From: a virus
IMG/VR virus record: IMGVR_UViG_3300020055_000156
Span: 1-23,973 of that record
Length of the DNA: 23,973 bases
Reading direction: 5' to 3' (one strand)
Shown: positions 18,893-21,438 of the stretch, one piece after another
Position numbering within the stretch: the first letter of the stretch is position 1
How the letters are laid out: each line of letters begins with the position of its first letter
The notes under the pieces: generated by a model
The model's database searches: none
Seen by the model: only the letters and a program-made list of their open reading frames with translations
What the model was told of the DNA's origin: nothing
Translations under genes and position numbers: made by a program

Positions 18893-20182
18893 ATGTTTCA
18901 AACTGAACATTTACAGGAAAAGTGGCAGCCAGTTTTAGAGCATAAAGATTTACCTGAAATCAAAGACTCTTATAGAAAAGCTGTAACCACAGTTATCCTA
19001 GAAAACCAAGAAAAAGCCCTTAAAGAAGATGCCGCATTTCTTTCAGAGGCTGCACCTACAAACTCAACTGGTGCTTCTATCGGAAATTGGGATCCAATCT
19101 TAATTTCTTTAGTTAGAAGATCAATGCCTAACTTAATTGCATATGATGTTTGTGGTGTACAACCTATGACAGGTCCAACAGGTCTTATCTTTGCAATGAG
19201 AGCTAAGTATTCATCACAAACTGGTACTGAAGCTTTCTACGCTGAGCCAGATAACGACTTTGCTGGTGGTAACACTCAAATGCAAGGTACTAACCCTGCT
19301 GTTCTTAATGATGACCCTGCTGGTACATATGTAACTGGTGTTGCAATGCAAACATCGGCTGCTGAAGCAAAAGGTGATTCTGCTACAAACGCTTTTGCAC
19401 AAATGGCGTTCTCAATTGACAAGCAAACTGTTACTGCAAGATCAAGAGCTTTAAAAGCTGAGTACACAATGGAACTTGCTCAAGACTTAAAAGCAATTCA
19501 CGGTCTAGACGCAGAAACAGAACTTGCTAACATTCTTTCTAGTGAGATTCTTGCTGAAATCAATAGAGAAGTTGTTAGAAACATCTACATTACTGCAAAA
19601 GAAGGTGCTGCTGTTGATACAACTACACAAGGTACATTCGATTTAGATGCAGATTCAAATGGTAGATGGTCTGTTGAGAAATTCAAAGGACTATTATTCC
19701 AAGTTGAAAGAGATGCAAATGTTGTTGCACAAGAAACTCGTAGAGGAAAAGGTAACATAGTTATCTGTTCTTCAGATGTTGCTTCTGCACTTTCAATGGC
19801 TGGTGTTCTTGACTATGCTCCTGCATTAAACACTAACTTAAATGTTGACGATACTGGTAATACTTTTGCTGGTACAATCAATGGTAAGTACAAAGTGTAT
19901 ATTGACCCATATTCTGCTAACGGTTCTGCTAATCAGTTCTTCGTTGTTGGATATAAGGGTTCTTCACCTTATGATGCAGGTATTTACTACTGCCCATATG
20001 TTCCATTGCAAATGGTTCGTGCAGTTGGTGAGAATACATTCCAACCAAAAATTGGTTTCAAAACAAGATACGGTCTTGCAATGAACCCATTCTCTCAAGG
20101 TAGTACAGCAATTACAGACGGAACAATGACTGCAAATGCTAATGTCTACTATCGTAGAGTAAAGGTTACTAATTTAGTATAA
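18893..20182 (+). CDS. 23: major capsid protein gp23
   Basis: 429 residues; T4 gp23 is 521, and shorter forms are usual in marine T4-like phages. It builds the capsid hexamers. The N-terminal propeptide ends with the gp21 site FLSE at 49-52, so the mature protein should begin at A53 (AAPTNSTG). Family signatures: LIAYDVCGVQPMTGPTG, KAEYTMELAQDLKAIHGLD, SEILAEINREVVRNI, AQETRRGKGNIVICSSDVA, the stretch YKVYIDPY, YDAGIYYCPYVPLQMVRAV, and FQPKIGFKTRYGLAMNPF near the C-terminus. The part between about 110 and 160, where T4 has a longer insertion, is short. A strong intrinsic terminator follows, isolating this unit from the next. Confidence 0.97.
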   Translation: MFQTEHLQEKWQPVLEHKDLPEIKDSYRKAVTTVILENQEKALKEDAAFLSEAAPTNSTGASIGNWDPILISLVRRSMPNLIAYDVCGVQPMTGPTGLIFAMRAKYSSQTGTEAFYAEPDNDFAGGNTQMQGTNPAVLNDDPAGTYVTGVAMQTSAAEAKGDSATNAFAQMAFSIDKQTVTARSRALKAEYTMELAQDLKAIHGLDAETELANILSSEILAEINREVVRNIYITAKEGAAVDTTTQGTFDLDADSNGRWSVEKFKGLLFQVERDANVVAQETRRGKGNIVICSSDVASALSMAGVLDYAPALNTNLNVDDTGNTFAGTINGKYKVYIDPYSANGSANQFFVVGYKGSSPYDAGIYYCPYVPLQMVRAVGENTFQPKIGFKTRYGLAMNPFSQGSTAITDGTMTANANVYYRRVKVTNLV

Positions 20183-20287: not shown

Positions 20288-20881
20288 ATGGTAGATTTTA
20301 ACCCACTTGCAAGACAACCATCAAATATAGACTATGCAAATAATACACAGTTTAGATTTGATATAATGAAATTACCCAATGTTCAGTATAATGTTATACG
20401 AGCAAATGTACCAGGCTTATCATTTGATGGTAATGCAGAATATACAACAAGATTTAAAAGAATACCTGCAATGGGTGAAGTTGTAAATTACGAAGATTTA
20501 AATCTTACTTTTATTGTACAAGAAAATTTTGCAAATTATATTGAAGTACATGATTGGATTATTGGTATAGGTTTTCCAAAAAGTACAACACAATTTGCAA
20601 ACGCAATTGCATCTGGTGAAACTGGATTAAAACCAAACGCAGGTGGTGATGTTAGTAGAACAGACACAAGTTCAAAAGTTGCAAACATATCTGCATTAGA
20701 AAGTGATGCAACATTAACTATTTTGACAAATAAAAATAATCCAACTGTCAGAGTTAATTTTAAAAGTTTGTATCCATCTGCACTTACTGGTGTTGAGTAT
20801 GATGTTCAATCTACAACAACTACACCATTAACAGCTACAGTAACTTTCAAATATTCAATTTATGAATTTGAAACTTTATAA
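20288..20881 (+). CDS. tail tube-fold-like virion protein
   Basis: 197 residues. The start (DFNPLARQPSNIDYANNTQF, then MKLPNVQYNVIRANVPGLSF) and the segment VNYEDLNLTFIVQENFANYI plus VHDWIIGIGFP follow the tube-fold layout of gp19: a -lP- loop, a second -PG- loop, a beta-hairpin, then a helix carrying W. It may be a tube initiator or terminator (gp54- or gp3-like role) or another tube-like baseplate protein; I cannot decide between these. It lies between gp23 and uvsY, has its own late promoter, and its TAA is embedded in a further late octamer that begins the next unit. Confidence 0.75.
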   Translation: MVDFNPLARQPSNIDYANNTQFRFDIMKLPNVQYNVIRANVPGLSFDGNAEYTTRFKRIPAMGEVVNYEDLNLTFIVQENFANYIEVHDWIIGIGFPKSTTQFANAIASGETGLKPNAGGDVSRTDTSSKVANISALESDATLTILTNKNNPTVRVNFKSLYPSALTGVEYDVQSTTTTPLTATVTFKYSIYEFETL

Positions 20882-20884
20882 ATA
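20877..20884 (+). promoter_or_regulatory. T4-type late promoter octamer driving the structured RNA
   Basis: Perfect TATAAATA overlapping the stop codon of the tube-like gene. With T4 spacing +1 is 20890, the first base of a 9-bp closing stem. It would transcribe the structured segment and possibly uvsY onward. Confidence 0.65.
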
Positions 20885-20889
20885 ATTAT

Positions 20890-20990
20890 GAGCAGTTTAA
20901 GGTTGGCTTGAACATTTGACAACCTTTCAGTCTTTCAATAGATAATATAGAAACTGCAAGTTGCAAACCAAACTGCTCACTCTCTTTTTA
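20890..20990 (+). ncRNA. putative structured phage late RNA (free sRNA or uvsY leader)
   Basis: A 113-base gap without a useful reading frame. Closing stem GAGCAGTTT (20890-20898) pairs perfectly with AAACTGCTC (20970-20978). Directly inside it AAGGTTG (20899-20905) pairs perfectly with CAACCTT (20920-20926), loop 14 bases. A weaker third hairpin joins CAGT-ct-TTC (20928-20936) with GAA-ACTG (20950-20956), giving a three-way junction. Bases 20907-20910 in the second hairpin's loop could pair with 20957-20960 as a pseudoknot. Alternatives exclude these: GCAGTTT can instead pair with AAACTGC at 20951-20957, and GTTTAAG (20895-20901) with CTTGAAC (20907-20913). A T-rich run (20985-20989) follows six bases after the stem, so it is not a classic terminator. 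I do not recognise the family. The 3' end is a guess. Confidence 0.6.
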
Positions 20991-21006
20991 AATTATGGAA
21001 CTCACT

Positions 21007-21438
21007 ATGACCCTCGAAGAATTGAAAATACAATCAGAAAAAGACATAACAATAGATGATATCGAATGTGATAAAGAAACCGTTCGTACTCATGCACTCA
21101 AAATAAAATACTTAAGACTATTCTCAAAATATAGATTACAAGAAAGAAAACATCATTTTGATTATCTAACTTTGAAAAAAGAAAAATGGGAATACTACGC
21201 TGGTAAAGCAAGTCCTGAAGTATATAGAGATAAACCATTCGACCACAAAATTCTTCGTGGTGATATTCCAATCTATCTAGAAGCCGATGAAGAATTAAAT
21301 ACTCTATTACAGAAAAAAGAATACTTTGAAACTTGTAAAGATTATTGTGAAGAAGTTTTGAAAACAATTAATAGTAGAAGTTTTGAAATTAAAAATATTA
21401 TTAATTGGAGAAGATTCATGGAAGGTATGGATGAATAA
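21007..21438 (+). CDS. uvsY: recombination mediator UvsY
   Basis: 143 residues from the ATG at 21007; T4 UvsY is 137. UvsY loads the UvsX recombinase onto gp32-coated single-stranded DNA. From MTLEELKIQSEKDITIDD the sequence lines up without gaps with the T4 start (MRLEDLQEELKKDVFIDS), which favours 21007 over the in-frame ATG at 20995; GGAA at 20998-21001 is a suitable ribosome site. Other shared points are KWEYYAGKASPEVY (T4: lDYYSGRGD), an L-rich C-terminal helix, and the end INSRSFEIKNIINWRRFMEG (T4: IKSRGFAIKHIQDMRAFEAG). It leads an overlapping three-gene unit with an oxygenase and UvsW and lies behind the structured RNA. Confidence 0.9.
   Translation: MTLEELKIQSEKDITIDDIECDKETVRTHALKIKYLRLFSKYRLQERKHHFDYLTLKKEKWEYYAGKASPEVYRDKPFDHKILRGDIPIYLEADEELNTLLQKKEYFETCKDYCEEVLKTINSRSFEIKNIINWRRFMEGMDE

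Follow-up and report, generated by a model that had tools for sequence, protein, structure and literature searches.

Candidate RNA at a predicted late promoter upstream of uvsY

A noncoding segment that folds directly downstream of a phage late-promoter motif raises the question of whether it is a genuine RNA element and, if so, whether it acts as a free small RNA or as part of the mRNA that follows. The window, that is, the whole stretch of 23,973 nt that was analyzed (IMG/VR record IMGVR_UViG_3300020055_000156), is a fragment of a T4-like marine myovirus, and its genes, all on one strand, encode the tail sheath, portal, prohead protease, scaffold, gp23, tail tube, UvsY, a 2OG-Fe oxygenase, and a UvsW-like helicase. 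An initial sequence-only reading had placed the segment between gp23 and uvsY; the gene immediately upstream proved to be that of the tail tube. The features of the locus are as follows.

18893–20182: gp23, not directly upstream of the RNA
20288–20881, + strand: tail-tube protein, the upstream neighbor (phrog_45)
20877–20884, + strand: T4-type late promoter octamer TATAAATA, exact in sequence, predicted +1 at 20890
20890–20898, + strand: P1 5′ strand, GAGCAGTTT (core GAGCAG at 20890–20895; 9 bp in the window phage)
20899–20926, + strand: alternative local hairpin of 7 bp, AAGGTTG (20899–20905) with CAACCTT (20920–20926), exclusive with P2; from the lowest-energy fold of the window sequence
20901–20904, + strand: P2 5′ strand, GGTT, pairing with 20966–20969
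20906–20910, + strand: P3 5′ strand, GCTTG, pairing with 20957–20961
20911–20914, + strand: conserved unpaired AACA after P3, its C invariant in the 54-sequence alignment
20930–20943, + strand: P4 hairpin (20930–20933 with 20940–20943)
20944–20949, + strand: conserved unpaired AATATA after P4, with one A and one U invariant in the 54 sequences
20957–20961, + strand: P3 3′ strand, CAAGT (covariation, RNAalifold)
20966–20969, + strand: P2 3′ strand, AACC (covariation, permutation test)
20970–20978, + strand: P1 3′ strand, AAACTGCTC (core CTGCTC at 20973–20978)
20979–21006, + strand: ribosome-binding segment between P1 and uvsY; 76 of the 80 distinct cases have a purine-rich stretch here that resembles a Shine-Dalgarno sequence
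21007–21438, + strand: uvsY, recombination mediator (phrog_231, E 1.3e−40)

The octamer overlaps the stop codon of the tail-tube gene. When it is placed at −13 to −6, +1 falls on 20890, and in the DNA the octamer is indeed followed by 5 nt and then by a 9-bp stem whose first base is 20890, as had been noted at the outset. This is the arrangement of a T4-type late promoter (TATAAATA, with the start ~6 nt downstream). The octamer occurs seven times in the window against 3.85 expected, a count that is not above chance by itself; the case for a promoter depends instead on the octamer-to-RNA spacing, which is fixed in relatives at 5 nt (4 in a few) before the first paired base in ~100 distinct sequences. 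The suggestion of a structured RNA starting at the predicted late +1 was thus borne out in phages other than the one that prompted it, and transcription is predicted, from the octamer spacing, to begin at 20890. Genes for gp55 and gp33 are annotated in the cultured methylophage Melnitz. For uvsY, homology favors the start at 21007, which aligns with the ATG used in relatives; another in-frame ATG lies at 20995.

Distribution of the RNA among marine T4-like phages

Relatives were gathered by UvsY and tail-tube searches of IMG/VR and by a location-blind scan with the pattern TATAAATA-N5-GWGYAG...CTRCWC, which together yielded more than 240 placed instances representing ~100 distinct sequences. 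All confirmed instances with readable flanks, including those from the location-blind scan, lay between the tail-tube gene and uvsY, and the few scan stretches found elsewhere bore no resemblance to the RNA family. A CM search of complete genomes detected exactly one sense copy, unannotated, in Melnitz (MZ577097.1, positions 129850–129932) and zero sense copies in each of HTVC008M and Mosig. The lengths of the tail tube–uvsY gaps were bimodal: none of the 57 unique gaps of ≤75 nt contained the RNA, and all 109 unique gaps of 105–141 nt did, with still longer gaps mostly holding inserted genes. These results indicate that the RNA element is real and widespread in marine T4-like phages. Phages without the RNA clustered together on the UvsY tree, suggesting that it has been inherited vertically over a long time; one phage in this tree (L128) has no CM match, and when it was dropped, the RNA label needed even fewer changes.

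In gaps of ≤75 nt, which lack the RNA, a sigma70-like promoter typically precedes uvsY, and the slot thus behaves as a promoter and leader slot of uvsY. This bears on the idea that the element terminates or stabilizes the 3′ end of the late capsid/tail-tube transcript upstream and overlaps a late promoter by chance. The RNA does begin ~9 nt 3′ of the tail-tube stop codon, and about half of the cases have a U-run, but neither the fixed 5-nt octamer spacing nor the fixed distance to uvsY is explained in this way, and the sigma70-like promoter occupies the same gap in phages that lack the RNA; we therefore regard this explanation as very unlikely. Separately, two loci (L124 and L129) have a terminator-like hairpin after the tail-tube gene, followed by a TATAAATA promoter for uvsY and no RNA.

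In three divergent loci among these 109 (L138, L133, and L143), TATATAAT plus 5 nt replaces TATAAATA, and P1 is a wholly different helix of 9–10 bp, while the core is shared. Because of this replacement, late expression of the RNA in these three phages is not certain. In L138 and L143, TATAAATA is nevertheless retained at the tail-tube gene.

Searches beyond this locus gave no sign of a known family or of another origin. None of the 4,227 models of Rfam 15 matched the window or 20 diverse loci at the gathering threshold (best chance match, E 0.47), and no description of the element was found in the literature on uvsY and structured or noncoding RNA. When the P1/promoter pattern was searched in 84,980 bacterial and archaeal species, 99 matches were obtained; they were scattered, and the best CM score among the 80 loci scored was 22.7 bits, so they were taken as chance and a host origin was rejected. 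A core-motif pattern retrieved 70 new loci, none with a CM match at E < 0.05, uvsY, or a tail-tube gene. A coding role was also rejected: there is no conserved ORF, every RNA has stops in two or more frames and 90 of 101 have them in all three, and RNA lengths differ by non-multiples of 3.

Conserved fold and covariation

The window sequence alone has a folding energy of −23.6 kcal/mol, compared with −16.4 ± 3.1 kcal/mol for shuffled sequences (z = −2.35; 5 of 200 as low), and in it the fold with the local hairpin (−21.9 kcal/mol) is slightly favored over a nested fold (−20.2 kcal/mol). The fold was then judged from relatives, using a MAFFT alignment of 54 distinct RNAs built without structure, in which RNAalifold found P1 and P3 unaided. 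Across P1–P4, 95.2% of the cells were paired, and 93 cells showed double changes, compared with 28.4 ± 4.3 in shuffles (0 of 500) and at most 21 in slid controls. Compensatory changes of the kind that the sequence-only reading had proposed to look for are present in all four helices. In P1, the exchanges seen in relatives are CG/UA, GC/AU, and AU/UA, and its 5′ strand has changed at least nine times on the UvsY tree with pairing kept. The last pair of P3 (UA in 27, GC in 20, AU in three, and UG in three of the 54 sequences) has likewise changed at least nine times on the tree, pairing held. P2 occurs as GGU:ACC, GGUG:CACC, GAU:AUC, and GGAU:AUCC; P4, although weak in the window phage (4 bp including one G-U), is paired in 94.8% of its cells, with double changes in all five pairs of the family helix.

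Because the location-blind scan required P1, this helix was re-checked on the protein-fetched loci alone: a perfect 6-bp P1 was present in 61 of the 64 unique gaps of 100–145 nt, and the other three had a different P1 of 9–10 bp. Furthermore, an alignment-free permutation test on 16 divergent sequences (<80% identity) gave p < 0.0002 for P1 and for P3 and p = 0.002 for P2, and no signal when, as a control, the local strands were paired with the distal strands. G-U cells outnumbered A-C cells (59 versus 8), indicating that the RNA strand is the sense strand of uvsY, and clear members scored ~52–81 bits on the + strand and up to 31 bits on the − strand with the CM. Taken together, the comparison of relatives supports a conserved fold in which P1, P2, and P3 are nested and P4 lies inside.

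Two elements of the original description must be reassigned accordingly. The pairing of GCTTG with CAAGT, suggested as a loop pseudoknot, is present and conserved, but it is helix P3 of the nested fold. The 7-bp local hairpin exists in the sequence as described, yet in relatives it is a weakly supported alternative (52.6% of cells paired in register; permutation p = 0.10), and it was rejected as the main fold in favor of P2 and P3. In one divergent member (L168:1393–1476), two pairing partners are clearly open to GUGUGA: the adjacent UCACAC and the distal strand of P1. The unpaired AATATA is kept as (U)AAUAUA in the divergent loci L138, L133, and L168.

A 5′ leader of uvsY or a free small RNA

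The distance from the end of P1 to the uvsY ATG is 17–32 nt in 76 of 80 distinct cases, and the ribosome site lies outside the fold. The four exceptions (L305, L338, L335, and L376) have a longer P1–uvsY gap with a second, sigma70-like promoter (TTGACN..TAATAT-like). The element thus has the marks of a cis-acting 5′ leader, namely, its position from promoter to start codon, its constrained distance, and its sense-strand covariation. An intrinsic terminator, consisting of a GC-rich stem and a conserved U-run, was not found, since P1 encloses ~75 nt and a TTTT run lies within 12 nt of P1 in 39 of the 80 cases. The constrained distance to uvsY, the ribosome-binding segment, and the lack of a consistent terminator all fit a 5′ leader; termination after P1 is possible in some phages, because those 39 have a run of at least four T residues there.

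The sequence-only reading had favored a discrete late small RNA, which would start at the late promoter, end by termination or processing after P1, be stabilized by its paired ends, and act in trans. The 5′ and 3′ ends do pair in P1, 39 of the 80 cases have the TTTT run, and the window itself has CTCTCTTTTT after P1. On the other hand, 41 of the 80 lack even a TTTT run (e.g., ACCCCTGAAAG and ACCCTATAAGATGG), the uvsY ATG follows at a tightly constrained distance, and the location-blind scan and the core-pattern scan found a single genomic context. With a ribosome-binding segment and uvsY following directly, the relatives do not support a separate RNA, and we consider one unlikely, at about one chance in five.

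A replication-origin element like T4 ori(uvsY)/oriF, in which a transcript made from the uvsY promoter serves as primer by forming an R-loop, would be another reason for a conserved transcript here, and T4 oriF has the same neighbor gene, uvsY. We find this highly improbable: the conserved folding in the RNA sense, with G-U pairs, is not required by an RNA-DNA hybrid, and the octamer here is of the late type. In T4, by comparison, oriF does form R-loops, but its RNA is made from a middle promoter that depends on MotA and is off late in infection (PMC3016281).

On balance, we hold it somewhat more probable than not that the element acts in cis, as a conserved and structured leader at the 5′ end of the late uvsY(-uvsW) mRNA, where it would seal that end and present its core to a partner.

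Pairing of the 5′ end and possible regulation

In the leader reading, a T4-type late promoter would start the transcript at the first base of P1, as the spacing predicts, and the initial ~89 nt would form, through P1, P2, and P3, an interrupted hairpin in which the 5′ terminus is paired and which carries P4, leaving a ribosome-binding site of ~20–30 nt outside. RppH acts preferentially on 5′ termini that are single-stranded, and structure at the 5′ end makes mRNA more stable (PMC3997798). The sealed end may therefore block 5′-end-dependent mRNA decay, which needs unpaired 5′ nucleotides. The predicted pairing probability of +1 to +3 averaged 0.94, compared with 0.29 with shuffled leaders. In Melnitz, structural genes have short late leaders whose 5′ ends are mostly unpaired (0.00–0.36), against 0.87 for uvsY; paired 5′ ends (0.73–0.93) are predicted for uvsY, hsp20, and a hypothetical gene at 31038, and one more leader is intermediate (0.62). 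This leader anatomy makes 5′-end sealing a likely part of the mechanism, although pairing of +1 would also arise if P1 had another purpose. Sealing cannot be the whole function, because the core is conserved. The AACA after P3 and the AAUAUA after P4 would form a putative site that binds a ligand or a protein of phage or host origin, and a partner bound there may tune the late output of uvsY and the co-transcribed uvsW.

One extension of this scheme, to which we give limited credence, is a switching regulatory RNA, in which the 5′ segment (GGUU/GAU) pairs with either a local strand or the distal P2 strand and a protein or ligand at the core chooses between them. If so, the choice would time the late production of UvsY and UvsW, i.e., recombination-dependent replication. 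A metabolite riboswitch controlling uvsY translation is less likely still. The conserved unpaired core and the mutually exclusive pairings of P2 and the local hairpin would suit one, and riboswitches are common in the streamlined hosts of these phages, with a glutamine riboswitch in Melnitz itself (PMC9004378). However, the Shine-Dalgarno sequence lies outside the fold and is no less exposed than when the leader is shuffled (0.56 versus 0.47 unpaired); pairing of the ribosome-binding site with the RNA as a whole gave no signal, two segments being marginal (p = 0.014–0.02); and uvsY is not a metabolic gene. Neither form of expression platform, a consistent terminator or a sequestered Shine-Dalgarno sequence, was found.

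Other late-promoter leaders in Melnitz

Melnitz has further leaders downstream of late promoters. Its hsp20 gene has a late promoter followed by a ROSE_3-like leader (MZ577097.1, L483:37870–37944) that scored 34.1 of 43 bits (E 5e−6), below the gathering score; the promoter and 5′ hairpin recur in three viral contigs, and hsp20 is a phage heat-shock gene with a putative RNA thermometer. A second late-promoter RNA (L481:30925–31010) consists of TATAAATA, 5 nt, and a GAATAAC...GTTATTC stem from the predicted +1. It is nearly identical in 10 further viral contigs (L484–L493), lies upstream of a small hypothetical gene, and has no Rfam match. The Melnitz gene for gp55, the late sigma factor (MZ577097.1:132264), has its own TATAAATA and a 135-nt leader, which suggests late autoregulation of gp55.

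Comparison with known systems

According to the main review of T4 (PMC3014915), neither riboswitches nor trans-acting regulatory RNAs had by then been functionally characterized in that phage. In pelagimyophages, late promoters were reported as not recognizable and searches gave no regulatory RNAs (PMC7029224), and the Melnitz paper described only a tmRNA and a glutamine riboswitch (PMC9004378). Among T4 RNAs, one parallel is the gene 32 leader: in this T4-type phage too, the mRNA of a replication/recombination gene begins with a structured leader. That leader has a 5′ pseudoknot and then, covering the ribosome-binding site, an A+U-rich operator free of structure (PMC3014915), and serves gp32 autoregulation, whereas the uvsY RNA is an interrupted hairpin that runs from the predicted +1 and precedes uvsY; its covariation follows the nested fold rather than a 5′ pseudoknot with such an operator, and no homology is implied. 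RNAC and RNAD, two small T4 RNAs without a known role (PMC3014915), are derived from the tRNA region, whereas the uvsY RNA is placed as the leader of uvsY.

The 5′-terminal stabilizing stems of bacterial mRNAs similarly pair the 5′ nucleotides and hinder RppH and RNase E tethering (PMC3997798); there, however, a stem suffices, and the uvsY RNA adds a conserved unpaired core and four covarying helices. The manA, wcaG, and glutamine RNAs are likewise structured cis-elements of marine T4-like phages (PMC2864571; PMC9004378), but they occur in other gene contexts, and the uvsY RNA matches no Rfam covariance model. The ROSE RNA thermometer (RF02523) resembles it as a cis leader of a late gene, hsp20, in Melnitz, and differs in sequence, fold, and gene. 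We therefore file the uvsY RNA as a new family within a known kind, the structured 5′ leader: a covariation-supported family, widespread in marine T4-like phages and tied to one recombination gene. It can serve as a landmark for late promoters in the genomes of these phages, and because Melnitz, a phage cultured on OM43, carries it, the 5′ end, the leader function, and the protection of the mRNA are directly testable.
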